A DNA stretch of 64,000 nucleotides from Sipunculus nudus (lineage: Eukaryota; Annelida; Sipuncula; Golfingiida; Sipunculidae), in contig CM049314.1 of assembly GCA_026874595.1 (NCBI GenBank), positions 2,069,318 to 2,133,317 on the forward strand, in the 5' to 3' direction. Both the position numbers and the translations under genes were made by a program. Positions 1 to 46,984 of the stretch are shown here, one piece after another. The first letter of the stretch is position 1. Every line of letters starts with the position of its first letter. The notes below the pieces were generated by a model, which saw only the letters and a list, made by a program, of their open reading frames with translations, was not told the origin of the DNA and searched no databases.

Positions 1-1741
1 TAATGTGGATGATGTACTAACCAACGCGTAATGTTTAGGAATAATGTGGATGATGTACTAACCAATGCGTAATGTTTAGGAATAATGTGGATGATGTACT
101 AACCAATGCGTAATGTTTAGGAATAATGTGGATGATGTACTAACCAATGCGTAATGTTTAGGAATAATGTGGATGTACTTACCAACGTGTAATGTTTAGG
201 AATAATGTGGATGATGTACTTACCAACGCGTAATGTTTAGGAATAATGTGGATGATGTACTAAGCAATGCGTAATGTTTAGGAATAATGTGGATGATGTA
301 CTAACCAATGCGTAATGTTTAGGAATAATGTGGATGATGTACTTACCAATGCGTAATGTTTAGGAATAATGTGGATGATGTACTAACCAATGCGTAATGT
401 TTAGGAATAATGTGGATGATGTACTTACCTACGCGTAATGTTTAGGAATAATGTGGATGATGTACTAACCAATGCGTAATGTTTAGGAATAATGTGGATG
501 TACTTACCAACGCGTAATGTTTAGGAATAATGTGGATGATGTACTAAGCAATGTGTAGTGTTTAGGAATAATGTGGATGATGTACTAACCAATGCGTAAT
601 GTTTAGGAATAATGTGGATGATGTACTAACCAATGCGTAATGTTTAGGAATAATGTTGATGATGTATTTACCAACGCGTAATGTTTAGGAATAATGTGGA
701 TGATGTACTTACCAAAGCGTAATGTTTAGGAATAATGTGGATGATGTACTAACCAATGCGTAATGTTTAGGAATAATGTGGATGATGTACTAACCAATGC
801 GTAATGTTTAGGAATAATGTGGATGTACTTACCAACGCGTAATGTTTAGGAATAATGTGGATGATGTACTTACCAACGCGTAATGTTTAGGAATAATGTG
901 GATGATGTACTAACCAATGCGTAATGTTTAGGAATAATGTGGATGATGTACTTACCAACGCGTAATGTTTAGGAATAATGTGGATGATGTACTAAGCAAT
1001 GCGTAATGTTTAGGAATAATGTGGATGATGTACTAACCAATGCGTAATGTTTAGGAATAATGTGGATGATGTACTAACCAATGCGTAATGTTTAGGAATA
1101 ATGTGGATGATGTACTAACCAATGCGTAATGTTTAGGAATAATGTGGATGATGTACTTACCAATGCGTAATGTTTAGGAATAATGTGGATGATGTACTTA
1201 CCAACGCGTAATGTTTAGGAATAATGTGGATGATGTACTTACCAACGCGTAATGTTTAGGAATAATGTGGATGATGTACTAACCAACGCGTAATGTTTAG
1301 GAATAATGTGGATGATGTACTAACCAATGCGTAATGTTTAGGAATAATGTGGATGATGTACTAACCAATGCGTAATGTTTAGGAATAATGTGGATGATGT
1401 ACTAACCAATGCGTAATGTTTAGGAATAATGTGGATGTACTTACCAATGCGTAATGTTTAGGAATAATGTGGATGATGTACTTACCAACGCGTAATGTTT
1501 AGGAATAATGTGGATGATGTACTAACCAACGCGTAATGTTTAGGAATAATGTGGATGATGTACTAACCAATGCGTAATGTTTAGGAATAATGTGGATGAT
1601 GTACTAACCAATGCGTAATGTTTAGGAATAATGTGGATGATGTACTAACCAATGCGTAATGTTTAGGAATAATGTGGATGATGTACTAACCAACGCGTAA
1701 TGTTTAGGAATAATGTGGATGATGTACTAACCAACGCGTAA
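1..1741 (-). repeat. 41-bp minisatellite spanning a 5' splice site
   Basis: About 42 units of 41 bp (a few are 35 bp, lacking one GAT-type step), continuing past the left edge. Read on the minus strand each unit holds TTACGCGTTG, the last ten bases of the KGAES exon, then a donor, either GTTAGT as in the real junction or the stronger GTAAGT. The array overlaps the exon end at 1732-1741. Confidence 0.97.
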
Positions 1742-1835
1742 CTGTTAACATGTTGTTCTGCAGCTTCCTTATCTCCATCTATGACACGATTAAATATTGC
1801 TGACTCAGCGCCTTTTACCAGAATGTACCCAGTAC
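1732..1835 (-). CDS. ATP11B: ATP11-like exon: nucleotide domain, KGAES
   Basis: Two bases plus 34 codons. Acceptor TTTTACAG, donor TTG|GTTAGT. It reads [20 protein letters not shown] and ends [14 protein letters not shown] is the ATP11B form of the nucleotide-binding KGA motif. The next family residues (EGLRTL) should begin the next exon, outside the window. Its last ten bases and the donor recur in the 41-bp array. Confidence 0.95.
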
Positions 1836-4800
1836 CTGTAAAACAGATATCCATAACATCAGCAAAAACAAATTACATAACAAGTGAAATAAAGACATTT
1901 AAAGTGATTAATCATATCAACTGCTTCAGTGCAAAATTCAAATTTACAAAACATAATTTCAGTGAAAAGGAATTCCTGATAAGAATATAACTACTTCACA
2001 ATGAATAATGAAACAAAAAGCATCTGATATTCCATTAATGCATATAGTTGTGTAGACAAAGAAAAATAACATATTAAAGGAAAGACAATAACATAGCTAT
2101 AGACAGATGTATGGTCATAATGTCTAGTCATTCCATGACAATAGAAGTTTTGCAGATGCGGTGTATTCTTTGAAGTATTTTTCCTCTATTGATGTAGTAC
2201 TCCTGCTGATGAAGCGATTCTGTGGATGTCATCTCTAACAATAACGCTCATCCTCTTTCTCATTTGGGATTTCTTTGAATTATTAGGATACCTACTCACC
2301 TTCCTCATCTCTAACAATAACGCTCATCTTCTTTCTCGTTTGGGATTTCTTTGAATTATTAGGATACCTACTCACCTTCCTCATCTCTAACAATAACGCT
2401 CATCTTCTTTCTCGTTTGGGATTTCTTTGAATTATTAGGATACCTACTCACCTTCCTCATCTCTAACAATAACGCTCATCCTCTTTCTCGTTTGGGATTT
2501 CTTTGAATTATTAGGATACCTACTCACCTTCCTCATCTCTAACAATAACGCTCATCCTCTTTCTCGTTTGGGATTTCTTTGAATTATTAGGATACCTACT
2601 CACCTTCCTCATCTCTAACAATAACGCTCATCCTCTTTCTCGTTTGGGATTTCTTTGAATTATTAGGATACCTACTCACCTTCCTCATCTCTAACAATAA
2701 CGCTCATCCTCTTTCTCGTTTGGGATTTCTTTGAATTATTAGGATACCTACTCACCTTCCTCATCTCTAACAATAACGCTCATCCTCTTTCTCGTTTGGG
2801 ATTTCTTTGAATTATTAGGATACCTACTCACCTTCCTCATCTCTAACAATAACGCTCATCCTCTTTCTCGTTTAGGATTTCTTTGAATTATTAGGATACC
2901 TACTCACCTTCCTCATCTCTAACAATAACGCTCATCCTCTTTCTCGTTTGGGATTTCTTTGAATTATTAGGATACCTACTCACCTTCCTCATCTCTAACA
3001 ATCACGCTCATCCTCTTTCTCGTTTGGGATTTCTTTGAATTATTAGGATACCTACTCGCCTTCCGCATCTCTTACATAACGCTCATCCTCTTTCTTGTTT
3101 GGGATTTCTTTGAATTATTAGGATACCTACTCACCTTCCTCATCTCTAACAATAACGCTCATCCTCTTTCTCGTTTGGGATTTCTTTGAATTATTAGGAT
3201 ACCTACTCACCTTCCTCATCTCTCACCTTCCTCATCTCTTACAATAACGCTCATCCTCTTTCTTGTTTGGGATTTCTCCGAATTATTAGGATACCTACTC
3301 ACCTTCCTCATCTCTAACAATAACGCTCATCCTCTTTCTCGTTTGGGATTTCTTTGAATTATTAGGATACCTACTCACCTTCCTCATCTCTCACCTTCCT
3401 CATCTCTTACAATAACGCTCATCCTCTTTCTTGTTTGGGATTTCTCCGAATTATTAGGATACCTACTCACCTTCCTCATCTCTAACAATAACGCTCATCC
3501 TCTTTCTCGTTTGGGATTTCTCTGAATTATTAGGATACCTACTCACCTTCCTCATCTCTAACAATAACGCTCATCCTCTTTCTTGTTTGGGATTTCTCCG
3601 AATTATTAGGATACCTACTCACCTTCCTCATCTCTAACAATAAAGCTCATCCTCTTTCTTGTTTGGGATTTCTCCGAATTATTAGGATACCTACTCACCT
3701 TCCTCATCTCTAACAATAACGCTCATCCTCTTTCTCGTTTGGGATTTCTTTGAATTATTAGGATACCTACTCACCTTCCTCATCTCTCACCTTCCTCATC
3801 TCTAACAATAACGCTCATCCTCTTTCTCGTTTGGGATTTCTTTGAATTATTAGGATACCTACTCACCTTCCTCATCTCTCACCTTCCTCATCTCTTACAA
3901 TAACGCTCATCCTCTTTTTTGTATGGGATTTCTCCGAATTATTAGGATACCTACTCACCTTCCTCATCTCTAACAATAACGCTCATCCTCTTTCTCGTTT
4001 GGGATTTCTCTGAATTATTAGGATACCTACTCACCTTCCTCATCTCTAACAATAACGCTCATCCTCTTTCTCATTTGGGATTTCTTTGAATTATTAGGAT
4101 ACCTTCTCACCTTCCTCATCTCTAACAATAACGCTCATCTTCTTTCTCGTTTGGGATTTCTTTGAATTATTAGGATACCTACTCACCTTCCTCATCTCTA
4201 ACAATAACGCTCATCTTCTTTCTCGTTTGGGATTTCTTTGAATTATTAGGATACCTACTCACCTTCCTTATCTCTAACAATCACGCTCATCCTCTTTCTC
4301 GTTTGGGATTTCTTTGAATTATTAGGATACCTACTCGCCTTCCTCATCTCTTACATAACGCTCATCCTCTTTCTTGTTTGGGATTTCTTTGAATTATTAG
4401 GATACCTACTCACCTTCCTCATCTCTAACAATAACGCTCATCCTCTTTCTCGTTTGGGATTTCTTTGAATTATTAGGATACCTACTCACCTTCCTCATCT
4501 CTCACCTTCCTCATCTCTTACAATAACGCTCATCCTCTTTCTTGTTTGGGATTTCTCCGAATTATTAGGATACCTACTCACCTTCCTCATCTCTAACAAT
4601 AACGCTCATCCTCTTTCTCGTTTGGGATTTCTTTGAATTATTAGGATACCTACTCACCTTCCTCATCTCTCACCTTCCTCATCTCTTACAATAACGCTCA
4701 TCCTCTTTCTTGTTTGGGATTTCTCCGAATTATTAGGATACCTACTCACCTTCCTCATCTCTAACAATAACGCTCATCCTCTTTCTCGTTTGGGATTTCT

Positions 4801-7800
4801 CTGAATTATTAGGATACCTACTCACCTTCCTCATCTCTAACAATAACGCTCATCCTCTTTCTTGTTTGGGATTTCTCCGAATTATTAGGATACCTACTCA
4901 CCTTCCTCATCTCTAACAATAAAGCTCATCCTCTTTCTTGTTTGGGATTTCTCCGAATTATTAGGATACCTACTCACCTTCCTCATCTCTAACAATAACG
5001 CTCATCCTCTTTCTCGTTTGGGATTTCTTTGAATTATTAGGATACCTACTCACCTTCCTCATCTCTCACCTTCCTCATCTCTAACAATAACGCTCATCCT
5101 CTTTCTCGTTTGGGATTTCTTTGAATTATTAGGATACCTACTCACCTTCCTCATCTCTCACCTTCCTCATCTCTTACAATAACGCTCATCCTCTTTTTTG
5201 TATGGGATTTCTCCGAATTATTAGGATACCTACTCACCTTCCTCATCTCTAACAATAACGCTCATCCTCTTTCTCGTTTGGGATTTCTCTGAATTATTAG
5301 GATACCTACTCACCTTCCTCATCTCTAACAATAACGCTCATCCTCTTTCTCCTTTGGGATTTCTCTGAATTATTAGGATACCTACTCACCTTCCTCATCT
5401 CTAACAATAACGCTCATCCTCTTTCTCGTTTGGGATTTCTCTGAATTATTAGGATACCTACTCACCTTCCTCATCTCTAACAATAACGCTCATCCTCTTT
5501 CTCGTTTGGGATTTCTTTGAATTATTAGGATACCTACTCACCTTCCTCATCTCTAACAATAACGCTCATCCTCTTTCTCGTTTGGGATTTCTCTGAATTA
5601 TTAGGATACCTACTCACCTTCCTCATCTCTAACAATAACGCTCATCCTCTTTCTCGTTTGGGATTTCTCTGAATTATTAGGATACCTACTCACCTTCCTC
5701 ACTTCTAACAATAACGCTCATCTTCTTTCTCGTTTGGGATTTCTTTGAATTATTAGGATACCTACTCACCTTCCTCATCTCTAACAATAACGCTCATCCT
5801 CTTTCTCATTTGGGATTTCTTTGAATTATTAGGATACCTACTCACCTTCCTCACCTCTAACAATAACGCTCATCTTCTTTCTCGTTTTGGATTTCTTTGA
5901 ATTATTAGGATACCTACTCACCTTCCTCATCTCTAACAATAACGCTCATCTTCTTTCTCGTTTGGGATTTCTTTGAATTATTAGGATACCTACTCACCTT
6001 CCTTATCTCTAACAATAACGCTCATCCTCTTTCTCGTTTGGGATTTCTTTGAATTATTAGGATACCTACTCACCTTCCTCATCTCTAACAATAACGCTCA
6101 TCCTCTTTCTCGTTTAGGATTTCTTTGAATTATTAGGATACCTACTCACCTTCCTCATCTCTAACAATAACGCTCATCCTCTTTCTCGTTTGGGATTTCT
6201 TTGAATTATTAGGATACCTACTCACCTTCCTCATCTCTAACAATAACGCTCATCCTCTTTCTCGTTTGGGATTTCTTTGAATTATTAGGATACCTACTCA
6301 CCTTCCTCATCTCTAACAATAACGCTCATCCTCTTTCTCGTTTGGGATTTCTTTGAATTATTAGGATACCTACTCACCTTCCTCATCTCTAACAATAACG
6401 CTCATCCTCTTTCTCGTTTAGGATTTCTTTGAATTATTAGGATACCTACTCACCTTCCTCATCTCTAACAATAACGCTCATCCTCTTTCTCGTTTGGGAT
6501 TTCTTTGAATTATTAGGATACCTACTCACCTTCCTCATCTCTAACAATCACGCTCATCCTCCTTCTCGTTTGGGATTTCTTTGAATTATTAGGATACCTA
6601 CTCGCCTTCCTCATCTCTTACATAACGCTCATCCTCTTTCTTGTTTGGGATTTCTTTGAATTATTAGGATACCTACTCACCTTCCTCATCTCTAACAATA
6701 ACGCTCATCCTCTTTCTCATTTGGGATTTCTTTGAATTATTAGGATACCTACTCACCTTCCTCATCTCTAACAATCACGCTCATCCTCTTTCTCGTTTGG
6801 GATTTCTTTGAATTATTAGGATACCTACTCGCCTTCCTCATCTCTAACAATAACGCTCATCCTCTTTCTTGTTTGGGATTTCTTTGAATTATTAGGATAC
6901 CTACTCACCTTCCTCATCTCTAACAATCACGCTCATCCTCTTTCTCGTTTGGGATTTCTTTGAATTATTAGGATACCTACTCGCCTTCCTCATCTCTAAC
7001 AATAACGCTCATCCTCTTTCTTGTTTGGGATTTCTTTGAATTATTAGGATACCTACTCACCTTCCTCATCTCTAACAATAACGCTCATCCTCTTTCTCAT
7101 TTGGGATTTCTTTGAATTATTAGGATACCTACTCACCTTCCTCATCTCTAACAATAACGCTCATCCTCTTTCTTGTTTTGGATTTCTTTGAATTATTAGG
7201 ATACCTACTCACCTTCCTCATCTTTAACAATAACGCTCATCCTCATTTTTGTTTGGGATTTCTTTGAACTATTAGGATACCTACTCACCTTCCTCATCTC
7301 TCACCTTCCTCATCTTTAACAATAACGCTCATCCTCTTTCTCGTTTGGGATTTCTTTGAATTAATAGGATACCTACTCACCTTCCTCATCTTTAACAATA
7401 ACGCTCATCCTCTTTTTCGTTTGGGATTTCTTTGAACTATTAGGATACCTACTCACCTTCCTCATCTCTAACAATAACGCTCATCCTCTTTCTCGTTTGG
7501 GATTTCTTTGAATTATTAGGATACCTACTCACCTTCCTCATCTCTAACAATAACGCTCATCCTCTTTCTCGTTTGGGATTTCTTTGAATTATTAGGATAC
7601 CTACTCACCTTCCTCATCTCTAACAATAACGCTCATCCTCTTTCTCGTTTGGGATTTCTTTGAATTATTAGGATACCTACTCACCTTCCTCATCTCTAAC
7701 AATAACGCTCATCCTCTTTCTCGTTTGGGATTTCTTTGAATTATTAGGATACCTACTCACCTTCCTCATCTCTAACAATAACGCTCATCCTCTTTCTCGT

Positions 7801-10800
7801 TTGGGATTTCTTTGAATTATTAGGATACCTACTCACCTTCCTCATCTCTAACAATCACGCTCATCCTCTTTCTCGTTTGGGATTTCTTTGAATTATTAGG
7901 ATACCTACTCGCCTTCCTCATCTCTTACATAACGCTCATCCTCTTTCTTGTTTGGGATTTCTTTGAATTATTAGGATACCTACTCACCTTCCTCATCTCT
8001 AACAATAACGCTCATCCTCTTTCTCATTTGGGATTTCTTTGAATTATTAGGATACCTACTCACCTTCCTCATCTCTAACAATCACGCTCATCCTCTTTCT
8101 CGTTTGGGATTTCTTTGAATTATTAGGATACCTACTCGCCTTCCTCATCTCTAACAATAACGCTCATCCTCTTTCTCGTTTGGGATTTCTTTGAATTATT
8201 AGGATACCTACTCACCTTCCTCATCTCTAACAATCACGCTCATCCTCTTTCTGGTTTGGGATTTCTTTGAATTATTAGGATACCTACTCACCTTCCTCAT
8301 CTCTAACAATAACGCTCATCCTCTTTCTGGTTTGGGATTTCTTTGAATTATTAGGATACCTACTCACCTTCCTCATCTCTAACAATAACGCTCATCCTCT
8401 TTCTCATTTGGGATTTCTTTGAATTATTAGGATACCTACTCACCTTCCTCATCTCTAACAATAACGCTCATCCTCTTTCTTGTTTTGGATTTCTTTGAAT
8501 TATTAGGATACCTACTCACCTTCCTCATCTTTAACAATAACGCTCATCCTCTTTTTCGTTTGGGATTTCTTTGAACTATTAGGATACCTACTCACCTTCC
8601 TCATCTCTCACCTTCCTCATCTTTAACAATAACGCTCATCCTCTTTCTCGTTTGGGATTTCTTTGAATTAATAGGATACCTACTCACCTTCCTCATCTTT
8701 AACAATAACGCTCATCCTCTTTTTCGTTTGGGATTTCTTTGAACTATTAGGATACCTACTCACCTTCCTCATCTCTCACCTTCCTCATCTTTAACAATAA
8801 CGCTCATCCTCTTTCTCATTTGGGATTTCTTTGAATTATTACGATACCTACTCACCTTCCTCATCTCTAACAATAACGCTCATCCTCTTTCTTGTTTGGG
8901 ATATCTTTGAATTATTAGGATACCTACTCACCTTCCTCATCTCTAACAATAACGCTCATCTTCTTTCTTGTTTGGGATATCTTTGAATTATTAGGATACC
9001 TACTCACCTTCCTCATCTCTAACAATAACGCTCATCCTCTTTCTTGTTTGGGATATCTTTGAATTATTAGGATACCTACTCACCTTCCTCATCTCTAACA
9101 AAAATGCTCATCTTCTTTCTTGTTTGGGATATCTTTGAATTATTAGGATACCTACTCACCTTCCTCATCTCTAACAATAACGCTCATCCTCTTTCTTGTT
9201 TGGGATATCTTTGAATTATTAGGATACCTACTCACCTTCCTCATCTCTAACAATAACGCTCATCTTCTTTCTTGTTTGGGATATCTTTGAACTATGAGGA
9301 TACCTACTCACCTTCCTCATCTCTCACCTTCCTCATCTTTAACAATAACGCTCATCCTCTTTCTTGTTTGGGATTTCTTTGAATTAATAGGATACCTACT
9401 CACCTTCCTCATCTCTAACAATAACGCTCATCCTCTTTCTCATTTGGGATTTCTTTGAATTATTACGATACCTACTCACCTTCCTCATCTCTAACAATAA
9501 CGCTCATCCTCTTTCTTGTTTGGGATATCTTTGAATTATTAGGATACCTACTCACCTTCCTCATCTCTAACAATAACGCTCATCTTCTTTCTTGTTTGGG
9601 ATATCTTTGAATTATTAGGATACCTACTCACCTTCCTCATCTCTAACAATAACGCTCATCCTCTTTCTTGTTTGGGATATCTTTGAATTATTAGGATACC
9701 TACTCACCTTCCTCATCTCTAACAATAACGCTCATCCTCTTTCTTGTTTGGGATATCTTTGAATTATTAGGATACCTACTCACCTTCCTCATCTCTCACC
9801 TTCCTCATCTTTAACAATAACGCTCATCCTCTTTCTCGTTTGGGATTTCTTTGAATTAATAGGATACCTACTCACCTTCCTCATCTCTAACAATAACGCT
9901 CATCCTCTTTCTTGTTTGGGATATCTTTGAATTATTAGGATACCTACTCACCTTCCTCATCTTTAACAATAACGCTCATCCTCTTTCTCGTTTGGGATTT
10001 CTTTGAATTATTAGGATACCTACTCACCTTCCTCATCTTTAACAATAACGCTCATCCTCTTTTTCGTTTGGGATTTCTTTGAACTATTAGGATACCTACT
10101 CACCTTCCTCATCTCTCACCTTCCTCATCTTTAACAATAACGCTCATCCTCTTTCTCGTTTGGGATTTCTTTGAATTAATAGGATACCTACTCACCTTCC
10201 TCATCTCTAACAATAACGCTCATCCTCTTTCTTGTTTGGGATATCTTTGAATTATTAGGATACCTACTCACCTTCCTCATCTCTAACAATAACACTCATC
10301 CTCTTTCTTGTTTGGGATATCTTTGAATTATTAGGATACCTACTCACCTTCCTCATCTCTAACAATAACGCTCATCCTCTTTCTTGTTTGGGATTTCTTT
10401 GAATTATTAGGATACCTACTCACCTTCCTCATCTCTAACAATAACGCTCATCCTCTTTCTCATTTGGGATTTCTTTGAATTATTAGGATACCTACTCACC
10501 TTCCTCATCTCTAACAATAACGCTCATCCTCTTTCTTGTTTGGGATTTCTTTGAATTATTAGGATACCTACTCACCTTCCTCATCTCTAACAATAACGCT
10601 CATCCTCTTTCTTGTTTGGGATTTCTTTGAATTATTAGGATACCTACTCACCTTCCTCATCTCTAACAATAACGCTCATCTTCTTTCTCGTTTGGGATTT
10701 CTTTGAATTATTAGGATACCTACTCACCTTCCTCATCTTTAACAATAACGCTCATCCTCTTTTTCGTTTGGGATTTCTTTGAACTATTAGGATACCTACT

Positions 10801-13800
10801 CACCTTCCTCATCTCTCACCTTCCTCATCTTTAACAATAACGCTCATCCTCTTTCTCGTTTGGGATTTCTTTGAATTAATAGGATACCTACTCACCTTCC
10901 TCATCTTTAACAATAACGCTCATCCTCTTTTTCGTTTGGGATTTCTTTGAACTATTAGGATACCTACTCACCTTCCTCATCTCTCACCTTCCTCATCTTT
11001 AACAATAACGCTCATCCTCTTTCTCATTTGGGATTTCTTTGAATTAATAGGATACCTACTCACCTTCCTCATCTTTAACAATAACGCTCATCCTCTTTTT
11101 CGTTTGGGATTTCTTTGAACTATTAGGATACCTACTCACCTTCCTCATCTCTCACCTTCCTCATCTTTAACAATAACGCTCATCCTCTTTCTCATTTGGG
11201 ATTTCTTTGAATTATTAGGATACCTACTCACCTTCCTCATCTCTAACAATAACGCTCATCCTCTTTCTTGTTTGGGATATCTTTGAATTATTAGGATACC
11301 TACTCACCTTCCTCATCTCTAACAATAACACTCATCCTCTTTCTTGTTTGGGATATCTTTGAATTATTAGGATACCTACTCACCTTCCTCATCTGTAACA
11401 ATAACGCTCATCTTCTTTCTCGTTTGGGATTTCTTTGAATTATTAGGATACCTACTCACCTTCCTCATCTCTAACAATAACGCTCATCCTCTTTCTTGTT
11501 TGGGATTTCTTTGAATTATTAGGATACCTACTCACCTTCCTCATCTCTAACAATAACGCTCATCCTCTTTCTTGTTTGGGATTTCTTTGAATTATTAGGA
11601 TACCTACTCACCTTCCTCATCTCTAACAATAACGCTCATCTTCTTTCTCGTTTGGGATTTCTTTGAATTATTAGGATACCTACTCACCTTCCTCATCTCT
11701 AACAATAACGCTCATCCTCTTTCTCGTTTGGGATTTCTTTGAATTATTAGGATACCTACTCACCTTCCTCATCTCTAACAATAACGCTCATCCTTTTTCT
11801 CGTTTGGGATTTCTTTGAATTATTAGGATACCTACTCACCTACCTCATCTCTAACAATAACGCTCATCCTCTTTCTCATTTGGGATATCTTTGAATTATT
11901 AGGATACCTACTCACCTTCCTCATCTCTAACAATAACGCTCATCCTCTTTCTCATTTGGGATTTCTTTGAATTATTAGGATACCTACTCACCTTCCTCAT
12001 CTCTAACAATAACGCTCATCCTCTTTCTCGTTTGGGATTTCTTTGAATTATTAGGATACCTACTCACCTTCCTCATCTCTAACAATAACGCTCATCTTCT
12101 TTCTCGTTTGGGATTTCTTTGAATTATTAGGATACCTACTCACCTTCCTCATCTCTAACAATAACGCTCATCCTCTTTCTCGTTTGGGATTTCTTTGAAT
12201 TATTAGGATACCTACTCACCTTCCTCATCTCTAACAATAACGCTCATCCTTTTTCTCGTTTGGGATTTCTTTGAATTATTAGGATACCTACTCACCTACC
12301 TCATCTCTAACAATAACGCTCATCCTCTTTCTCATTTGGGATATCTTTGAATTATTAGGATACCTACTCACCTTCCTCATCTCTAACAATAACGCTCATC
12401 CTCTTTCTCATTTGGGATTTCTTTGAATTATTAGGATACCTACTCACCTTCCTCATCTCTAACAATAACGCTCATCCTTTTTCTCGTTTGGGATTTCTTT
12501 GAATTATTAGGATACCTACTCACCTTCCTCATCTCTAACAATAACACTCATCCTATTTCTCGTTTGGGATTTCTTTGAATTATTAGGATACCTACTCACC
12601 TTCCTCATCTCTAACAATAACGCTCATCCTCTTTCTTGTTTGGGATTTCTTTGAATTATTAGGATACCTACTCACCTTCCTCATCTCTAACAATAACGCT
12701 CATCCTCTTTCTTGTTTTGGATTTCTTTGAATTATTAGGATACCTACTCACCTTCCTCATCTTTAACAATAACGCTCATCCTCTTTTTCGTTTGGGATTT
12801 CTTTGAACTATTAGGATACCTACTCACCTTCCTCATCTCTCACCTTCCTCATCTTTAACAATAACGCTCATCCTCTTTCTCGTTTGGGATTTCTTTGAAT
12901 TAATAGGATACCTACTCACCTTCCTCATCTTTAACAATAACGCTCATCCTCTTTTTCGTTTGGGATTTCTTTGAACTATTAGGATACCTACTCACCTTCC
13001 TCATCTCTCACCTTCCTCATCTTTAACAATAACGCTCATCCTCTTTCTCATTTGGGATTTCTTTGAATTATTACGATACCTACTCACCTTCCTCATCTCT
13101 AACAATAACGCTCATCCTCTTTCTTGTTTGGGATATCTTTGAATTATTAGGATACCTACTCACCTTCCTCATCTCTAACAATAACGCTCATCTTCTTTCT
13201 TGTTTGGGATATCTTTGAATTATTAGGATACCTACTCACCTTCCTCATCTCTAACAATAACGCTCATCCTCTTTCTTGTTTGGGATATCTTTGAATTATT
13301 AGGATACCTACTCACCTTCCTCATCTCTAACAATAACGCTCATCTTCTTTCTTGTTTGGGATATCTTTGAATTATTAGGATACCTACTCACCTTCCTCAT
13401 CTCTAACAATAACGCTCATCCTCTTTCTTGTTTGGGATATCTTTGAATTATTAGGATACCTACTCACCTTCCTCATCTCTAACAATAACGCTCATCTTCT
13501 TTCTTGTTTGGGATATCTTTGAACTATGAGGATACCTACTCACCTTCCTCATCTCTCACCTTCCTCATCTTTAACAATAACGCTCATCCTCTTTCTCGTT
13601 TGGGATTTCTTTGAATTAATAGGATACCTACTCACCTTCCTCATCTCTAACAATAACGCTCATCCTCTTTCTCATTTGGGATTTCTTTGAATTATTACGA
13701 TACCTACTCACCTTCCTCATCTCTAACAATAACGCTCATCCTCTTTCTTGTTTGGGATATCTTTGAATTATTAGGATACCTACTCACCTTCCTCATCTCT

Positions 13801-19800: not shown

Positions 19801-20193
19801 ACCAAACAATCATGACAGAAAAGTGCTGAATCAGCAAAAAAGTTGATTCAAGATATTGTTTTAAACAATTAGCAGATCTTCAAGAAAGAGAAAATGTGTA
19901 TAACAACATTCATTTACTGTGAGTTAATGTGTTAAACTGGATATTGTTTAAACATGCACTTCATTTCTGGGATGAAAGATTAATTGACACTCCAGAGTTG
20001 TCATCAGTAAACATTAAAATAGGATGGGACGGAACTTACTTTTCTACCCTAGAAAATTTAGTTGACTTGTATTTTGAGTTGAGAGCCATTTTGGTCTCCT
20101 GGCCTGTATATATTGCACAACCTGCAAGCGGAGAGAACAAAAATGTTATAAGTTTCATGTATCTGATACCGCCTGGTGTGTTGTGGCACTGTA

Positions 20194-20242
<49 letters not shown>

Positions 20243-23200
20243 GTTAACTGTTATACAGTCAGGTATATACATGACCCTATGTCTGTGATATGAGGAACTG
20301 CATATGTACCACCGATACAGCTTTATGTATGAGAAATCACACTGGTTCATTTGTATAAAAGAAGCTCTAAATTTTCTGAATGTGAAGCTGATGGACTACA
20401 GGTACAATGTATATTTCAAATCTGTGTTCAGAGTAATATCTTGTACATGTAATGCCGTATCTACAGTGGAGGTCATCATTGATGTAGAAAAATGTGTGCA
20501 CCTGGCTTTAATCACGGTGTAAGATATAATGTTTAGTCACTATATATCATAGTAAGTATAAAATTGATCTTTGCACTTGACTCTATCAGCCGTTCATATT
20601 GGCTGAAAGATTGACTGACTTCATATCTATTATAATTTAATTACCATGCAACATTCAACAATTATCAGTTATTTAGAAAAATATTTTGATTTAATAACTT
20701 TCCATTTTGAAAAAGTGATTTATCAGCACATTCATTGAAAATTTAACAAAACTGTTGACACGGCTGTTTAGGAATAGGTTTGCTTTCCTCACTAACAATC
20801 TTGTGAATACACAAACTGGTATGTAAACATACAGCAATAAATATGACATGAAAACTTACCATAAATAAATGGCGTATTTTTTAACCTTGATCCCCGTAAC
20901 ACTACATTTTCTGGTCCCAGGGACTTAGTTACTGATTCACCTCGAGCCATATGAATATTCATACGACCTACAAATCTGTACAAGTCTGTTATTGGTTGCT
21001 GACATTCTATGTTGGCACGGAATTCATAAAGCTGTGTTTCTGTTTGTAAATGCCTTGTTTCTTGTAGACATAAAAAAGTCTGAAAATAATAAAAAAAAAA
21101 AGAAAAATTTATGCACAGCACATATCAAACGTTTTAAATGAAAACTGAATTGATAAAAAATCTGTGTCATACTGCATCCTCTGGAATTTAATTTCATACT
21201 CTGGTCTTGCTTGTTGTTTCTTTTATTTTTTGTATATTTAATACTCTTTTGTTTGATGTAAACATGTATGTTAAGATGTAAACATTTTGATATTTCATGG
21301 AAACTGGAAAACTCTTGCCAGTATAGTTTTCTTAGTTCACAACAGATGGCAGCACTCATTGAACATGGTGAAAATGATTACTGTACTATGACCAATTGTA
21401 GAAAGAGACTGGGGAGTGCAGAGGTGGGGGGGGGGGGAACAATATCTCTGACTTGAATCAGTATGAGTATTGATTGCTCTGACATAATGCACATGAAAAA
21501 CGTTATAAAGTTTTCATAAACATGTACGACAAACTGCTATTTTTTCATGTTATTCTTTACAGTCCCTCTATCAATATTTTATCAACTGATATTAACATTC
21601 TCCTTTAGCCTAACCTTTATTTTCTGAACATTTACAGCAAAACAATTATTTTTATTCTGTAATACTGTACAACACCAAGAATAGCAGTACAAACCGTTTA
21701 CTGTTACACCTTCATGGTACTTAATGCCGATGTCTTGACCAGAGAACTAGTGAATACTCATGATGAGGATACAGACTATATTATTAATGGAGTTCTGAAT
21801 GGATCTGACATTGTGGACAGGGATGCTGTGCCTAAACCAGCGAGTCTGACATTGTGGACAGGGATGCTGTGCCTAAACCAGCGAGTCTGACATTGGGGAC
21901 AGGGATGCTGTGCCTAAACCAGCGAGTCTGACATTGTGGACAGGGATGCTGTGCCTAAACCAGCGAGTCTGACATTGTGGACAGGGATGCTGTGCCTAAA
22001 CCAGCGAGTCTGCAAACCACAAATCAGGTATATTGAATTGTGCTTAAACCCAGTCTAGTTACTTTCCATATTTAATGGTAATACTGTTTAACATAGATAC
22101 AACAATAATAACAGTTTATTCTACATGACTTTTTCAGAATCTATTTACATAATTTGTTGTACATACAAAAATAATAACATAGTTTATTCTACATGACTTT
22201 TCAGACTATATATTAACATAAATTGTTGTACATACAAAAATAATAACATAGTTTATTCTATCATGACTTTTCAGACCATATATTAACATAAATTGTTGTA
22301 CATACAAAAATAATAACATAGTTTATTCTACATGACTTTTTCAGGATATATTTACATAAATTGTTGTACATACAAAAATAATAACATAGTTTATTCTACA
22401 TGACTTTTTCAGGATATATTCACATAAATTGTTGTACATACAAAAATAATAACATAGTTTATTCTACATGACTTTTTTAGGATATATTTACATAAATTGT
22501 TGTACATACAAAAATAATAACATAGTTTATTCTACATGACTTTTTCAGGATATATTTACATAAATTGTTGTACATACAAAAATAATAACATAGTTTATTC
22601 TACATGACTTTTTCAGAATATATTTACATAATTTGTTGTACACACAAAAATAATAACACAGTTTATTCTACATGACTTTTCAGACTAAGTATTAACATAA
22701 ATTGTTGTACACACAAAAATAATAACATAGTTTATTCTACATGACTTTTTCAGAATATATTTACATAATTTGTTGTACATACAAAAATAATAACATAGTT
22801 TATTCTACATGACTTTTTCAGGATATATTTACATAAATTGTTGTACATACAAAAATAAAAACATAGTTTATTCTACATGACTTTTTCAGAATATATTTAC
22901 ATAATTTGTTGTACACACAAAAATAATAACATAGTTTATTCTACATGACTTTTTCAGGATATATTTACATAAATTGTTGTACATACAAAAATAATAACAT
23001 AGTTTATTCTACATGACTTTTTCAGAATATATTTACATAATTTGTTGTACACACAAAAATAATAACACAGTTTATTCTAGATGACTTTTCAGACTAAGTC
23101 TTAACATAAATTGTTGTACACACAAAAATAATAACATAGTTTATTCTACATGACTTTTTCAGAATATATTTACATAATTTGTTGTACATACAAAAATAAT

Positions 23201-26200
23201 AACATAGTTTATTCTACATGACTTTTTCAGGATATATTTACATAAATTGTTGTACATACAAAAATAATAACGTTTATTCTACATGACTTTTTCAGAATAT
23301 ATTTACATAATTTGTTGTACACACAAAAATAATAACATAGTTTATGCTACATGACTTTTTCAGGATATATTTACATAAATTGTTGTACATACAAAAATAA
23401 TAACATAGTTTATTCTACATGACTTTTTTAGGATATATTTACATAAATTGTTGTACATACAAAAATAATAACATAGTTTATTCTACATGACTTTTTCAGG
23501 ATATATTTACATAAATTGTTGTACATACAAAAATAATAACATAATTATTCTACATGACTTTTTCAGACTATATATTAACATAAATTGTTGTACATAAAAA
23601 AATAATAACATAGTTTATTCTACATGACTTTTTGAGAATATATTTACATTAATTGTTGTACATAGAAAAATAATAACATAGTTTATTCTATCATGACTTT
23701 TCAGACTATGTATTAACATAAATTGTTGTACATACAAAAATAATAACATAGTTTATTCTACATGACTTTTTCAGGATATATTTACATAAATTGTTGTACA
23801 TACAAAAATAATAACAAAGTTTATTCTGCATAATTTGTTTCTGAGTACATTTTTCATAAGTTGTTAAACTCACTTTGAGAATGGTGTCACCATCAAAGTT
23901 TTTCTGAGTACATTTTTGATAAATTGTTAAACTCACTTTGAGAATGGTTTCACCATCTAAGTTTTTCTGAGTACATTTTTGATAAATTGTTAAACACTCA
24001 CTTTGAGAATGGTTTCACCATCTAGGTTTCTCTGAGTACATTTTTCACAATTTGCTAAACTCACTTTGAGAATGGTTTCACCATCTAAGTTTTTCTGAGT
24101 ACATTTTTGATAAGTTGTTAAACTCACTTTGAGATTGGTTTCACCATCTAAGTTTTTCTGAGTACATTTTTGATAAGTTGTTATACTCACTTTGAGATTG
24201 GTATCACCATCTAAGTTTTTCTGAGTACATTTTTGATAAGTTGTTATACTCACTTTGAGATTGGTATCACCATCTAAGTTTTTCTGAGTACATTTTTGAT
24301 AAATTGTTAAACTCACTTTGAGAATGGTTTCACCATCTAAGTTTTTCTGAGTACATTTTTGATAAGTTGTTATACTCACTTTGAGAATGGTTTCACCATC
24401 TAGGTTTCTCTGAGTACATTTTTCACAATTTGCTAAACTCACTTTGAGAATGGTTTCACCATCTAAGTTTTTCTGAGTACATTTTTGATAAGTTGTTAAA
24501 CTCACTTTGAGATTGGTTTCACCATCTAAGTTTTTCTGAGTACATTTTTGATAAGTTGTTATACTCACTTTGAGATTGGTATCACCATCTAAGTTTTTCT
24601 GAGTACATTTTTGATAAGTTGTTATACTCACTTTGAGATTGGTATCACCATCTAAGTTTTTCTGAGTACATTTTTGATAAGTTGTTAAACTCACTTTGAG
24701 AATGGTTTCACCATCTAAGTTTTTCTGAGTACATTTTTGATAATTTGTTATACTCACTTTGAGATTGGTTTCACCATCTAAGTTTTTCTGAGTACATTTT
24801 TGATAAGTTGTTATACTCACTTTGAGATTGGTATCACCATCTAAGTTTTTCTGAGTACATTTTTGATAAGTTGTTATACTCACTTTGAGATTGGTATCAC
24901 CATCTAAGTTTTTCTGAGTACATTTTTGATAAGTTGTTATACTCACTTTGAGAATGGTTTCACCATCTAAGTTTTTCTGAGTACATTTTTGATAAATTGT
25001 TAAACTCACTTTGAGAATGGTATCACCATCTAAGTTTTTCTGAGTACATTTTTGATAAGTTGTTATACTCACTTTGAGATTGGTATCACCATCTAAGTTT
25101 TTCTGAGTACATTTTTGATAAGTTGTTATACTCACTTTGAGATTGGTATCACCATCTAAGTTTTTCTGAGTACATTTTTGATAAGTTGTTATACTCACTT
25201 TGAGATTGGTATCACCATCTAAGTTTTTCTGAGTACATTTTTGATAAGTTGTTATACTCACTTTGAGATTGGTATCACCATCTAAGTTTTTCTGAGTACA
25301 TTTTTGATAAGTTGTTATACTCACTTTGAGATTGGTATCACCATCTAAGTTTTTCTGAGTACATTTTTGATAAGTTGTTATACTCACTTTGAGATTGGTT
25401 TCACCATCTAAGTTTTTCTGAGTACATTTTTGATAATTTGTTATACTCACTTTGAGATTGGTTTCACCATCTAAGTTTTTCTGAGTACATTTTTGATAAG
25501 TTGTTATACTCACTTTGAGAATGGTTTCACCATCTAAGTTTTTCTGAGTACATTTTTGATAAGTTGTTATACTCACTTTGAGATTGGTTTCACCATCTAA
25601 GTTTTTCTGAGTACATTTTTGATAAGTTGTTATACTCACTTTGAGATTGGTATCACCATCTAAGTTTTTCTGAGTACATTTTTGATAATTTGTTATACTC
25701 ACTTTGAGATTGGTTTCACCATCTAAGTTTTTCTGAGTACATTTTTGATAAGTTGTTATACTCACTTTGAGATTGGTATCACCATCTAAGTTTTTCTGAG
25801 TACATTTTTGATAAGTTGTTATACTCACTTTGAGATTGGTTTCACCATCTAAGTTTTTCTGAGTACATTTTTGATAATTTGTTATACTCACTTTGAGATT
25901 GGTTTCACCATCTAAGTTTTTCTGAGTACATTTTTGATAAGTTGTTATACTCACTTTGAGATTGGTATCACCATCTAAGTTTTTCTGAGTACATTTTTGA
26001 TAAGTTGTTATACTCACTTTGAGATTGGTTTCACCATCTAAGTTTTTCTGAGTACATTTTTGATAATTTGTTATACTCACTTTGAGATTGGTTTCACCAT
26101 CTAAGTTTTTCTGAGTACATTTTTGATAAGTTGTTATACTCACTTTGAGATTGGTATCACCATCTAAGTTTTTCTGAGTACATTTTTGATAAGTTGTTAT

Positions 26201-29200
26201 ACTCACTTTGAGATTGGTTTCACCATCTAAGTTTTTCTGAGTACATTTTTGATAATTTGTTATACTCACTTTGAGATTGGTTTCACCATCTAAGTTTTTC
26301 TGAGTACATTTTTGATAAGTTGTTATACTCACTTTGAGAATGGTTTCACCATCTAAGTTTTTCTGAGTACATTTTTGATAAGTTGTTATACTCACTTTGA
26401 GAATGGTTTCACCATCTAAGTTTTTCTGAGTACATTTTTGATAATTTGTTATACTCACTTTGAGATTGGTTTCACCATCTAAGTTTTTCTGAGTACATTT
26501 TTGATAAGTTGTTAAACTCACTTTGAGATTGGTTTCACCATCTAAGTTTTTCTGAGTACATTTTTGATAAGTTGTTATACTCACTTTGAGATTGGTATCA
26601 CCATCTAAGTTTTTCTGAGTACATTTTTGATAAATTGTTAAACTCACTTTGAGAATGGTTTCACCATCTAAGTTTTTCTGAGTACATTTTTGATAAGTTG
26701 TTATACTCACTTTGAGATTGGTTTCACTATCTAAGTTTTTCTGAGTACATTTTTGATAAGTTGTTAAACTCACTTTGAGATTGGTTTCACCATCTAAGTT
26801 TTTCTGAGTACATTTTTGATAAGTTGTTATACTCACTTTGAGATTGGTTTCACTATCTAAGTTTTTCTGAGTATATTTTTGATAAATTGTTAAACTCACT
26901 TTGAGAATGGTTTCACCATCTAAGTTTTTCTGAGTACATTTTTGATAAGTTGTTATACTCACTTTGAGAATGGTTTCACCATCTAAGTTTTTCTGAGTAC
27001 ATTTTTGATAATTTGTTATACTCACTTTGAGATTGGTTTCACCATCTAAGTTTTTCTGAGTACATTTTTGATAAGTTGTTAAACTCACTTTGAGAATGGT
27101 TTCACCATCTAAGTTTTTCTGAGTACATTTTTGATAAGTTGTTATACTCACTTTGAGAATGGTTTCACCATCTAAGTTTTTCTGAGTACATTTTTGATAA
27201 TTTGTTATACTCACTTTGAGATTGGTTTCACCATCTAAGTTTTTCTGAGTACATTTTTGATAAATTGTTAAACTCACTTTGAGAATGGTTTCACCATCTA
27301 AGTTTTTCTGAGTACATTTTTGATAAGTTGTTATACTCACTTTGAGATTGGTTTCACCATCTAGGTTTCTCTGAGTACATTTTTGATAAATTGTTAAACT
27401 CACTTTGAGAATGGTTTCACCATATATGTTTTTCTGAGTACATTTTTGATAATTTGTTATACTCACTTTGAGATTGGTATCACCATCTAAGTTTTTCTGA
27501 GTACATTTTTGATAAGTTGTTATACTCACTTTGAGAATGGTTTCACCATCTAAGTTTTTCTGAGTACATTTTTGATAAGTTGTTAAACTCACTTTGAGAA
27601 TGGTTTCACCATATATGTTTTTCTGAGTACATTTTTGATAATTTGTTATACTCACTTTGAGATTGGTATCACCATCTAAGTTTTTCTGAGTACATTTTTG
27701 ATAAATTGTTAAACTCACTTTGAGAATGGTTTCACCATCTAAGTTTTTCTGAGTACATTTTTGATAATTTGTTATACTCACTTTGAGATTGGTTTCACCA
27801 TCTAAGTTTTTCTGAGTACATTTTTGATAAGTTGTTAAACTCACTTTGAGAATGGTTTCACCATCTAAGTTTTTCTGAGTACATTTTTGATATGTTGTTA
27901 TACTCACTTTGAGATTGGTTTCACCATCTAGGTTTCTCTGAGTACATTTTTGATAAATTGTTAAACTCACTTTGAGAATGGTTTCACCATATATGTTTTT
28001 CTGAGTACATTTTTGATAATTTGTTATACTCACTTTGAGATTGGTATCACCATCTAAGTTTTTCTGAGTACATTTTTGATAAATTGTTAAACTCACTTTG
28101 AGAATGGTTTCACCATCTAAGTTTTTCTGAGTACATTTTTGATAAGTTGTTATACTCACTTTGAGAATGGTTTCACCATCTAAGTTTTTCTGAGTACATT
28201 TTTGATAATTTGTTATACTCACTTTGAGATTGGTTTCACCATCTAAGTTTTTCTGAGTACATTTTTGATAAGTTGTTAAACTCACTTTGAGAATGGTTTC
28301 ACCATCTAAGTTTTTCTGAGTACATTTTTGATAAGTTGTTATACTCACTTTGAGATTGGTTTCACCATCTAGGTTTCTCTGAGTACATTTTTGATAAATT
28401 GTTAAACTCACTTTGAGAATGGTTTCACCATATATGTTTTTCTGAGTACATTTTTGATAATTTGTTATACTCACTTTGAGATTGGTATCACCATCTAAGT
28501 TTTTCTGAGTACATTTTTGATAAATTGTTAAACTCACTTTGAGAATGGTTTCACCATCTAAGTTTTTCTGAGTACATTTTTGATAAGTTGTTATACTCAC
28601 TTTGAGAATGGTTTCACCATCTAAGTTTTTCTGAGTACATTTTTGATAATTTGTTATACTCACTTTGAGATTGGTTTCACCATCTAAGTTTTTCTGAGTA
28701 CATTTTTGATAAGTTGTTAAACTCACTTTGAGAATGGTTTCACCATCTAAGTTTTTCTGAGTACATTTTTGATAAGTTGTTATACTCACTTTGAGAATGG
28801 TTTCACCATCTAAGTTTTTCTGAGTACATTTTTGATAAATTGTTAAACTCACTTTGAGAATGGTTTCACCATCTATGTTTTTCTGAGTACATTTTTGATA
28901 AGTTGTTAAACTCACTTTGAGATTGGTTTCACCATCTAGGTTTCTCTGAGTACATTTTTGATAAGTTGTTAAACTCACTTTGAGATGGGTTTCACCATCT
29001 ATGTTTTTCTGAGTACATTTTTGATAAGTTGTTAAACTCACTTTGAGATTGGTATCACCATCTAAGTTTTTTCTGAGTACATTTTTGATAAATTGTTAAA
29101 CTCACTTTGAGAATGGTTTCACCATCTATGTTTTTCTGAGTACATTTTTGATAAGTTGTTAAACTCACTTTGAGATTGGTTTCACCATCTAGGTTTCTCT

Positions 29201-32200
29201 GAGTACATTTTGATAATTTGCTAAACTCAATTTGAGAATGGTTTCACCATATATGTTTTTCTGAGTATATTTTTGATAAATTGTTAAACTCACTTTGAGA
29301 TTGGTATCACCATCTAAGTTTTTTCTGAGTACATTTTTGATAAATTGTTAAATTCACTTTGAGATGGGTTTCACCATCTAAGTTTTTCTTAGTACATTTA
29401 TCATAAGTTAAATTTTGTTATACTCACTTTGAGATTGGTTTCACCATCTAAGTTTGCCGTGGTGATGTAACATTCCCCGTCCGGATCATGTGCCGATAAC
29501 ATGACCATGTCACATGGAATACCCTCATTAGCGTGTACCCGGACAATATCACCCACCTCAAAAAGAGAAATTCAAATTAAGTTATAACTTTAACTACTGC
29601 TCTTGTAAGTTTCACATTACAAGTTAACATTCATTTTAAACATGTACTGCTTATAGCCTTAATTTTATGTATCATAATTACAGACTATATTTTAGGAATA
29701 CGGCTATAAGACTGATATATAAGAAATAAACAGCAAACCTTTCATCAAGTTTAAATTGACTTGTTTAAATTACTGTAAATTAAAATGTAAAACAAAATTT
29801 CTGGTGATCTGTTACTGAGCAGCCCAAAGCATATTTATAGTCATAAATGTACGATAAGCAAGACAGGTCCTAGTTTCAATGACACATCTACATGACAACA
29901 GGTAAGGTCAAAAAGTAAAATGCAGTCTGAATGGCATGAGAACACTGAGGTACACATCCAGTTTTACAAATTTGACATTATATTGCATCTTGCCATACAA
30001 TTTTTATGGGCCAACATGATTTTCACTACACTGGGTGTGAAAATCTTACAAACTAAGCAAAAATCATAAGGGAAGGTAGCTCTTTAAAACTTATATATCA
30101 AACAGGAAATGACAAAATTTTGCTATGTAAGCACATTAAACAAAAAACACAATTTTGAAAGGACTGAGATGCACTTATGTTATTTTCTCAACTTACAACA
30201 ATGTCCATGGCCTTGATTTGTATGAGCTCACCGTCCCGCACCACACTGACAAGCCCGAAGTTCACCTCATTGTCAGCTTTATGTCGCAACCAGTCCTCAT
30301 ACCCCTACAAACATAACAGACAATGAACCAGTCCTCATTCCCCTACAAACATAACACACAATGAACAAGTCCTCATTCCCCTACAAACATAACACACAAT
30401 GAATCAGTCCTCATACCCCTACAAACATAACACACAATGAACCAGTCCTCATAACCCTACAAACATAACAGACAATCAACCAGTCCTCATACCCCTACAA
30501 ACATAACAGACAATCAACCAGTCCTCATACCCCTACAAACATAACAGACAATCAACCAGTCCTCATACCCCTACAAACATAACAGACAATCAACCAGTCC
30601 TCATACCCCTACAAACATAACAGACAATCAACCAGTCCTCATACCCCCACAAACATAAAGGAATGAACCAGTCCTCATACCCCTACAAACATAACAGAAA
30701 ATGAACCAATCCTCATACCCCTACAAACATGACACACAATGAACCAGTCCTCATACCCCTACAAACATAACACACAATGAACCAGTCCTCATACCCCTAC
30801 AAACATAACAGACAATCAACCAGTCCTCATACCCCTACAAACAACAATCAACCAGTCCTCATACCCCTACAAACATAACAGACAATCAACCAGTCCTCAT
30901 TCCCCTACAAACATAACAGAAAATGAACCAGTCGATCCTCATACCCCTACAAACATAACAGAAAATGAACCAGTCTTCATACCCCTACAAACATAACAGA
31001 AAATGAACCAGTCGAACCTCATACCCCTACAAACATAACAGAAAATGAACCAGTCATCATACCCCTACAAACATATGACAGACAATCAACCAGTCCTCAT
31101 ACCCCTATAAACATAACAGACAATGTACCAGTCCTCATACCCCTACAAACATAACACACAATGAACCAGTCATATACCCCTACAGACAAAACAGACAATC
31201 AACCAGTCCTCATACCCCTACAAACATAACAGACAATGAACCAGTCCTCATACCCTCATAACAGTCTGTACCATATACTGGTGAAGCTTATTTCAAATTG
31301 AAGGTGATCATATTTGGGATGGGATTAAATGTACAGAGGTAAAGGGGATGAGGGTTAGGGACAGGGCAAAATGGGGAATAAGGGGTGGTGATGGAGGTCA
31401 TGTGACGTTACAACATAGGAAAAGTTCTACCAACTTGTAAATATACCCAAAATCAGTCACGTAATCAAAGTATGGGCATGCAGTATTGCATTTCAATGTA
31501 TCTAACAAAGTTATATAATAAATATATATATATGTCAGGGTAGAGTTTGCGATATGGTAGAATCAGAGTTTCTACTGGGAGAAACTACGATCTGAGTCTC
31601 TGCTGGTAGAAACCATGATCGGAGTCTCTACCAGTAGAAACTCCGATTCCACTGGTATAGAGATTCTGATTGTGGTTTCTACCAGTTGAAACTGCGACTG
31701 ATCATTACACAACAAATTAACACCTTAATTGTGACAGCTTTCACACTTTGTGAGTAGTTTGGTTACAAAAACATACATTAAAGGTAAAAAGTTATGGTAA
31801 ACGTTTCACACCTAATCAATACTTGCCTGTTATCTCTCCCACTTAGTGAATTATTTTGTTAGAAGAACAAACATTAAGGGTAATAATTTTACAACATAAT
31901 GGTTCTTTGCCTGTGACATACTTAAAATAAATAGGAAATAAATTCACAGGTTTTTTAAGGGGAAAAGGCATAAGAAATAAAGTCATAATTTTTAAAGAAA
32001 ATTCACATATTTAATATTTAGATAAATATATAATATCAATAAACAACCACTGAAACTTATTTTGGGATTTGCACCAACAGAGTTCCTATCTGTAGAACTG
32101 AAGTTCCTACCAGTAGGATCACAGTATCTCCTGGTTGGCTTATCATTAACTGAAGTTCCTACCAGTAAGATTACAGTTTCTACTGGCCTGGTAGGATCGC

Positions 32201-35200: not shown

Positions 35201-36919
35201 GCCCTTGTTCATAATAGCATATGATAAATCTAATACTGTAAATATATGTACTGTGGATAACTACTGATTTAGAAGCCTTCATCATAGATCTTAAATGCAA
35301 TGTTACCTTGATTTCTGTAAAACCAATCAACATGTAAGGGACATACATATATATATATATATATATTACTTTCTCTATGCTCTGCATTGTAACTTCATTC
35401 TGACCTGACTTCAGATGTCACTTATCTCAGGTATACACCAATACTGCCTGCTATTGGTGAAGCACTTCACCTGGGGATAGGTGTGGTGAGAGATAAGAAT
35501 GCTATCAAGGTTGGAGTTGCCATAGCAACAAGGTCAAGTGCGCAGATGTCACATGACACAAAGTAATGTTAACGCACGCTAGTTTTATGGGGACAGGTAA
35601 ACAATCATGTGACGGTAAGATATATTGGCCAAGTGATAAAAGTGCTGTTACTCTGAAGGTCAGATTACTCAATCCTGTCACTGCCAGCCTCTAAGCCAAA
35701 TTGGTTAATTCAAAAAGAAGAAACAGATATATCATTTTGATGAAAAGTTAAGATTTGGGATTCTCACTAAATTATATAGAGCAAACCTGAAAATCTGATA
35801 TAATATGAGGGGCTTATAGAAACACATCATTCTTATCATGGTATGTAACATGTACAAACAGCATAAATTAGGAGAAGTTATTGCAAAATGAATATCCCTT
35901 CCACATATCATACAAAAACCATTTTAAAATATTTTGTGTTTTCAAACAACATTTAAAAGCATTATCCGAACTATTATCAAACTTTTTTTAAACCTGGTCA
36001 CTACAATGTCAGGTGACCTAACAGGGGTGACAGCTTTGTACATGTAATTGACCCCACCCTGATGTCCATTTCCAGTATCATACATGTACCTGGAATAACT
36101 TGTACCTAGTACAGATAAGGTACTTTAGTTCCAGGTACAGGTACCAGATACTTCCTTCTCATGACAGCCAGGTACAGGTACAGGTACTCTGAATAGTGAA
36201 CCTAGGTACAGGTATAAGTACCTGACCCCAACCCTGGTCTACATGGGTGTCTATGTATGACTTTTACATGATTTTTCTTTCTTTTTTTGGGGGGGGGGGG
36301 GCGGCGGGTGTAGGTTTGTGGATCAAAGATCAGGTAGCACCTACAAACCTGCTTAGCCTGATGCCTGTGTGAAAGCAAAAACACTCCTCAATCCATGTTA
36401 TAACTGTGTAGTGAGTGGAAGCTGTAAAATAAAACTATCTAGTCAACTTTTTAAATATCTGTGTGTATATAGGCAACAGGACGATTTACCCCACAGACAT
36501 TTATCCTGAATCATTTACCCCTATCATTTATCCCCGACCCCACCCAAGACATTTAAAAAAAGACCTGATTTTATTTTGAAACTGGGTTGACCAAAGCTGT
36601 GGATATATGATTGATTTTGTCTGCATTTCCCCCAGTAATATGCTGATCAACCTCTGATGCAGACACTGGTATACTTCCAGAAAGCTGGGATTTGAGACAA
36701 GGAATAAACAGTTAATCAAAATTAAAAGCCAAGTTAAATCAGAATCTTTGGTGGAGGTCTGATCTCTCTTAGCGTGGTTTTATGAGATATATTTAAATAT
36801 ATCTTACCTGTTTGCACATGGTGACTCCTATAACAAAAGCCAAGGGCAGGAAGCTTGTGATTGGACTGACTGGGCTGTCAATTACCAGCTGAGGAAACAA
36901 TAGACATGTACATATTATT

Positions 36920-38262: not shown

Positions 38263-38433
38263 CTAAAACAAACAAAAAATAAATACTTCACCTTGAATTC
38301 ATCAAGATTTATATAAACAGCACATTAAAAAAAAGGTTATATGTTAAATACCTGTATGTAATAAAGTTATATCATTGTATATCACATGCAGAAGAGATCC
38401 ATTTATTTATTTCAAACAACATGAATTGAAGTA

Positions 38434-41400: not shown

Positions 41401-41466
41401 AGGCTTTTGGTTCACTTAAGGGTGGTCTTATTAGATAGGTGCATCTTTCAGACAGGGGTTCCCCTG
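38434..41466. mobile_element. Non-autonomous TIR DNA transposon with internal satellite
   Basis: The left end CAGTGAAACCTTTGTTAT and the right end (complement CAGGGGAACCCCTGTC) form imperfect inverted repeats, each flanked by TA, as expected of a TA-target element (Tc1/mariner-like or another TA-targeting group; superfamily not settled). The inside is almost wholly an array of about 36 units of about 80 bp, in two alternating forms, built around AGGTGGTCTTATTTA and TTCACTTAAGGGTGGTCTTA. The unit shares TAAGACCACCT with the left terminal region, so the satellite probably grew from the subterminal sequence. No coding capacity. Confidence 0.8.
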
Positions 41467-46980: not shown

Positions 46981-46984
46981 GAAA

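Follow-up and report, generated by a model that had tools for sequence, protein, structure and literature searches.

Why should six tandem arrays in a single gene each be built on an exon–intron junction, and do the splice-site copies that they contain serve any purpose? The question arises from a 64-kb window (the whole stretch of DNA that was analyzed), in which an ATP11-type P4-ATPase gene, which encodes a lipid-flipping pump, carries six tandem arrays whose units each combine the edge of an exon, its splice site, and adjoining intron, a composition that places them alongside the mirages of amphioxus and the exon stuttering of chicken.

Gene model and anatomy of the junction arrays

Fourteen exons of the P4-ATPase were located on the minus strand of the window:

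1732..1835, minus strand: P4-ATPase exon; last 10 bases match the 41-bp unit
14656..14798, minus strand: P4-ATPase exon; last 40–41 bases match the 76-bp unit
15293..15453, minus strand: P4-ATPase exon without a junction array
15869..16030, minus strand: P4-ATPase exon with DKTGT, the P-type ATPase phosphorylation motif
16511..16626, minus strand: P4-ATPase exon without a junction array
18387..18468, minus strand: P4-ATPase exon; last 40 bases match the 54-bp unit
19558..19696, minus strand: P4-ATPase exon; last 11 (perhaps ~22) bases match the 35/70-bp unit
20040..20121, minus strand: P4-ATPase exon without a junction array
20860..21079, minus strand: P4-ATPase exon without a junction array
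29428..29556, minus strand: P4-ATPase exon ending in LDGETNLK; last 28 bases match the 63-bp unit
30197..30304, minus strand: P4-ATPase exon starting with GYEDWLRH; first 17 bases match the 38-bp unit
36808..36888, minus strand: P4-ATPase exon without a junction array
37408..37497, minus strand: P4-ATPase exon; match to Pfam PhoLip_ATPase_N, E 2.6e-14
38149..38262, minus strand: P4-ATPase exon, the most upstream found

When the exons are joined at the exon-proximal sites, the final model comprises 1,731 bases in a single open frame of 577 codons with 0 stops, and GT and AG are present at 14/14 donors and 14/14 acceptors, respectively. The coding sequence is therefore intact across the exon-proximal joins, as would be expected of a mirage or stuttering gene. 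The best solved-structure match is ATP11C (7bsp_A; E 2.9e-140; query residues 1–204 and 201–507), obtained with a 509-residue draft protein that has two exons fewer than the final 14-exon model. A spliced gene marks the DNA as eukaryotic, and the resemblance to ATP11C suggests that it comes from an animal. Neither the start nor the end of the gene was found within the window. The initial annotation had described the arrays within 1–31258; they are real, but the gene lies on the minus strand and runs on to the exon at 38149–38262. Rfam and tRNA scans of the window returned nothing, and a search of viral contigs with six peptide patterns from a 346-residue protein piece and one 63-bp junction pattern yielded no relatives.

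All six arrays proposed at exon edges of this gene were recovered, with the same periods; the copy numbers refer to the intronic part of each array:

1..1746, minus strand: 41-bp array at a donor; ~42 copies in the intron; truncated where the window begins
2229..14696, minus strand: 76-bp array at a donor; ~164 copies; internal duplications
17133..18426, minus strand: 54-bp array at a donor; ~23 copies in the intron; exon frame stays open
19226..19571, minus strand: 35/70-bp array at a donor; 4–5 double units; decayed copies to ~19072
23838..29455, minus strand: 63-bp array at a donor; ~89 copies; open stretch of 1,701 codons in the exon frame (23990–29095)
30288..31255, minus strand: 38-bp array at an acceptor; ~25 copies upstream of the exon

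Five arrays thus sit at donors and one at an acceptor, too few for a donor preference to be claimed. Units of 41, 76, 54, 70 (two 35-bp halves), 63, and 38 bp include 10, 41, 40, 11, 28, and 17 exon bases, respectively, by ungapped extension, and a looser match in the 70-bp array extends, by eye, perhaps ~22 bp into the exon. An exon edge is part of every unit, as had been reported, but the earlier range of 9–45 exon bases becomes 10–41. Together the arrays sum to 22,440 bp, in agreement with the ~22.6 kb first estimated, and mean identity to the consensus is 0.949–0.977 across the six. BLAST with whole exons (E 0.01) recovered copies for 4/6 exons (159, 88, 23, and 14 hits) and gave 0 hits for the exons of the 41- and 70-bp arrays because their exon parts of 10 and 11 bases are too short; these two cases therefore rest on the in-phase continuation of the repeat into the exon, over 10 and 11 bases.

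A junction array is present in 6 of the 14 introns (13 complete, one cut by the window). The eight introns without one measure 343–738 bp, and the five complete introns with one measure 1,089–12,820 bp. After removal of all listed arrays, four of these five fall to 393–808 bp; the arrays do not account for all intron length because the remaining one, in which a non-junction array also lies, is still 4,105 bp long.

Frequency of arrays at junctions and independence of their births

Each unit appears to be of local origin, since a search at E 1 gave none of them a match to any other listed array or to exon sequence beyond the array concerned. The junction units gave 13 hits elsewhere in the window, and those examined were chance-level matches or decayed copies beside the 70-bp array. 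Because the units do not match one another, the six births can be regarded as separate, as the initial annotation had proposed from the unit sizes.

Arrays also occur away from junctions. Among the 11 arrays in the window with at least four copies, five span no exon found:

21804–22012: non-junction array in the gene span
22097–23837: non-junction 68-bp array in the gene span, AT-rich and purely intronic, abutting the distal end of the 63-bp array
33516–34962: non-junction array in the gene span
38490–41430: 82-bp array of the GTGGTCTTA type, upstream of the gene span, adjoining a related single copy (by eye; region 38430–41430)
46982–47478: non-junction 34-bp array, upstream of the gene span

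Four weak hits link the 68-bp array to its 63-bp neighbor (best E 0.022, a 30-base match at 83%), and this similarity is taken as chance, as is the contact of the 34-bp unit with an exon at E 0.42. The 82-bp array looks element-derived and not junction-derived. An exact 31-base piece of the 34-bp unit is isolated at 48178–48208, ~700 bp from its array, as though a split had occurred in the array or in its source.

Several other repeats were observed in the window. At 31562–32344, repeats of the CTACTGGTAGAAACT type occur in both orientations; to the eye they are imperfect palindromes, and they may be what is left of a mobile element. A weak endonuclease-reverse transcriptase match on the minus strand at 49623–50054 (PF14529, E 4.5e-5, under the curated cut-off) is likely a LINE remnant. 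The minus-strand open frames at 50196–50387 and 59626–59952 gave no convincing match in a Pfam search and resemble each other by eye; they are probably copies of one dispersed repeat.

The excess of arrays at junctions was measured by a placement test, in which each array was collapsed to one unit and placed randomly in the gene span with wholly exonic positions forbidden. TRF arrays whose period fell below 20 were excluded, rows that overlapped were combined by eye, and a unit was scored as junction-spanning if it held at least 9 exon bases plus 2 others. The P values that follow hold for this window and not for a genome because the window was picked for the pattern: for arrays of at least four copies in the gene span, 6/9 span a junction versus 0.89 expected (P 5.1e-5), or versus 0.83 expected (P 3.3e-5) in a variant count in which the 70-bp array is treated as period 35 and small arrays are collapsed too; at 20 or more copies the count is 5/7 (P 1.4e-4), at a period of 20 or more in the gene span 6/12 (P 2.1e-4), and in the whole window 6/19 (P 7.0e-6). 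The arrays that do not span a junction begin at 21804, 22097, 31562, 32113, 32303, and 33516 in the gene span, with seven more upstream.

These data support the view that junctions are favored for arrays within this gene, and the suggestion that repeats start preferentially at junctions holds to that extent. It is also conceivable that no bias exists, that duplications arise anywhere, that wholly exonic ones are purged, and that those at junctions survive since splicing hides them. The five arrays without a junction show that ordinary arrays do arise here, and the proposal in the initial annotation that junction copies are tolerated because they are spliced away fits the observations. Tolerance alone, however, predicts no excess over intron interiors, whereas the excess was obtained with exonic positions already forbidden. 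The choice of window inflates that excess, and we regard tolerance without bias as an unlikely explanation.

Copied splice sites and open frames

Counting complete units only, 304/315 donor units retain GT and 286 retain the whole consensus hexamer; at the acceptor, AG is kept in 24/25 units and the hexamer in 22. Fit of the copies to the U1 consensus is about equal to that of the true sites. The copied donors might be functional splice sites, kept in reserve or used as alternatives, or else the 54- and 63-bp units might add 18- or 21-residue repeats to some forms of the protein. The splice hexamer is nevertheless conserved no better than the rest of the unit: ranked by variability among all stretches (1 = least variable), it stands at 33/41, 26/76, 23/54, 28/70, 16/63, and 10/38, and special conservation of the copied donors was rejected.

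The frames point the same way. The exon frame remains open for 449 codons in the 54-bp array (exon included) and for the 1,701 codons noted above in the 63-bp array, but this openness matches chance: stop-making variant types number 0/15 versus 1.0 expected in the former (P 0.32) and 0/22 versus 1.3 expected in the latter (P 0.26), and selection for open frames through the two arrays was likewise rejected. In four of the six arrays the unit length is not divisible by three, and the consensus frames of these four contain stops. Among variant types in exon-derived columns, 18/56 are synonymous versus 12.4 expected (P 0.04), a borderline lean contrary to fully unconstrained copies that would favor function. 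The differences between exons and array consensuses are 4/4 synonymous (P 0.014), as expected if the exon changed under purifying selection. No selection was detectable on the donor copies or the open frames, and we consider it very unlikely that the copies are functional.

Birth and growth of the arrays

We consider it likely that the arrays arose through a mutational bias at exon edges, grew by recombination, and are spliced away with no function of their own. Six independent tandem duplications of 35–76 bp would each have reached 10–41 bp into an exon at one end and stopped within the adjoining intron at the other. The arrays would then have expanded and been homogenized inside the introns via unequal exchange or gene conversion. 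Splicing would use the copy beside the exon body, as suggested by the intact frame and the ATP11C match, and the remaining copies would be removed with the intron; use of this proximal copy would leave the protein unchanged. The surplus splice sites, like the long open frames, would be by-products, and the junction excess points to the proposed bias.

The ends of the arrays bear on the first step. In the 63-bp array, the exonic start and the intronic end both fall at unit column 35. The 54-bp array begins at column 14 and has its ungapped edge at column 2, followed by a one-base gap and more match, so that it is in phase at both ends if one lost base is allowed. Such in-phase ends are as a simple tandem duplication predicts. 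That prediction is not borne out for the 76-bp array, whose end (column 70) does not share the phase of its start (column 35).

Later growth has left traces in two arrays. The 76-bp array contains exact internal blocks, one of 1,007 bp (lag 1,279) and one of 695 bp (lag 4,232), and the end units of the 63-bp array diverge more than its middle units; no clear effect of divergent ends was seen in the 41-, 76-, and 38-bp arrays. The block duplications and the divergent ends are consistent with unequal exchange. The blocks could alternatively be assembly duplications, which makes the copy numbers uncertain, and they would be the natural starting point for supposing that the arrays were invented or inflated by the assembler. 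A draft genome is also said, in the accessible text of PMC3087553, to be aberrantly assembled at one amphioxus mirage. The copies differ from one another, however, as the identities to the consensus show, the units start at six distinct junctions, and assemblers do not choose splice sites; there is only a very slim chance that the arrays as a whole are an artifact.

What might initiate duplications at exon edges was considered in terms of base composition and structure. The initial annotation had suggested breaks or R-loops there, and R-loop or G-quadruplex instability would suit the 76- and 38-bp arrays, whose coding strand is rich in G (skew 0.47 and 0.68). The coding-strand GC skew of the 41-, 54-, 70-, and 63-bp arrays is −0.40, 0.12, −0.29, and −0.03, however, and array GC is 0.30–0.41 with a G4 motif in 0/6 arrays, so that across a skew range of −0.40 to +0.68 the R-loop proposal finds no support. 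Initiation of the arrays by either structure is highly improbable. For comparison, GC is 0.43 in exons, 0.33 in array-free introns, and 0.34 in the window minus arrays and exons. Birth driven by hairpins was also unsupported: eight units were folded (the six junction units and two of the five others), and none of the junction units folds much better than shuffles (z −1.38 to 0.93). R-loops, G4, and hairpins thus fail to explain all six arrays.

Comparison with mirages and exon stuttering

The initial annotation knew of no gene with such growth at six junctions, but the kind has already been published; the comparisons here draw on the accessible parts of the cited papers. In amphioxus, tandem repeats across exon–intron boundaries, termed mirages, are described in the globins BflGb6 and BflGb9 (PMC3087553), in Adh3 according to earlier work cited in that paper, and in PGBD5, with troponin C by citation (PMC3902484). 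As in the P4-ATPase gene, they are minisatellite-like copies of exon edge, splice site, and intron at a donor or an acceptor, and we also count as likeness their units of 10–160 bp and their occurrence at several loci in one genome (PMC3087553, PMC3902484). The amphioxus copy numbers are small (6 and 3 in BflGb6 haplotypes, 2–7 in PGBD5) compared with up to ~164 here, and six arrays in one gene are unlike the amphioxus mirages in the accessible text of PMC3087553 and PMC3902484. Regular splicing and length instability are reported for amphioxus (PMC3087553), whereas the present arrays are known from the DNA of one haplotype.

Exon stuttering in chicken affects 236 introns of 115 genes, with 190/236 introns on dot chromosomes; GC content, G4, and meiotic events are named as possible causes, and GC-rich genes of the gerbil are also mentioned, with data not shown (PMC12954441). 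More than 90% of the copied exon sources lie at most one base from the exon border, the exon parts measure 20–187 bp (median 36) and the splice site is copied, purely intronic arrays occur alongside, and spans range from 112 to 23,555 bp (PMC12954441), all of which resembles the arrays described here. Copies number 1–44 (median 4) in chicken (PMC12954441), against up to ~164 here. Chicken stuttering also has a GC-rich setting, whereas GC here is 34% outside arrays and exons, with no G4. The GC-rich gene and chromosome setting is thus absent from this locus, and the arrays are therefore not filed as dot-chromosome stuttering.

Two further systems likewise involve short duplications that copy splice signals, namely human internal tandem repeats at exon–intron boundaries (PMC2812944) and intron gain by way of tandem genomic duplication (PMC3443670). 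As far as their accessible text goes, those duplications create new introns or repeat-bearing exons, whereas existing introns are enlarged here. A literature search covering few subscription journals found no described case of six junction arrays in one gene, and no further junction arrays appear in the accessible parts of PMC12783039 (earthworm intronic minisatellites), PMC4039745, and PMC10015627.

The six-array gene is a genuine, extreme instance of a phenomenon that is already known, though not widely, and it probably works like amphioxus mirages and chicken exon stuttering. What is new is the dose, with ~164 copies in one array and 6/14 introns involved, and the AT-rich setting, which speaks against high GC being required and weakens the case made in chicken for GC and G4. 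The case also joins two previously unlinked reports: the chicken paper (PMC12954441) does not contain the words mirage, lancelet, or minisatellite and has amphioxus once, in its reference list. Six independent seeds in one gene make the question of why repeats start at junctions a countable one. We tentatively raise the broader possibility, though it seems to us rather doubtful, that exon edges are a general hotspot for short tandem duplication in animals and that amphioxus, chicken, and this AT-rich genome display one process, linked to how the junction itself is transcribed, spliced, or repaired rather than to GC content, which can drive most of the intron growth in a gene.
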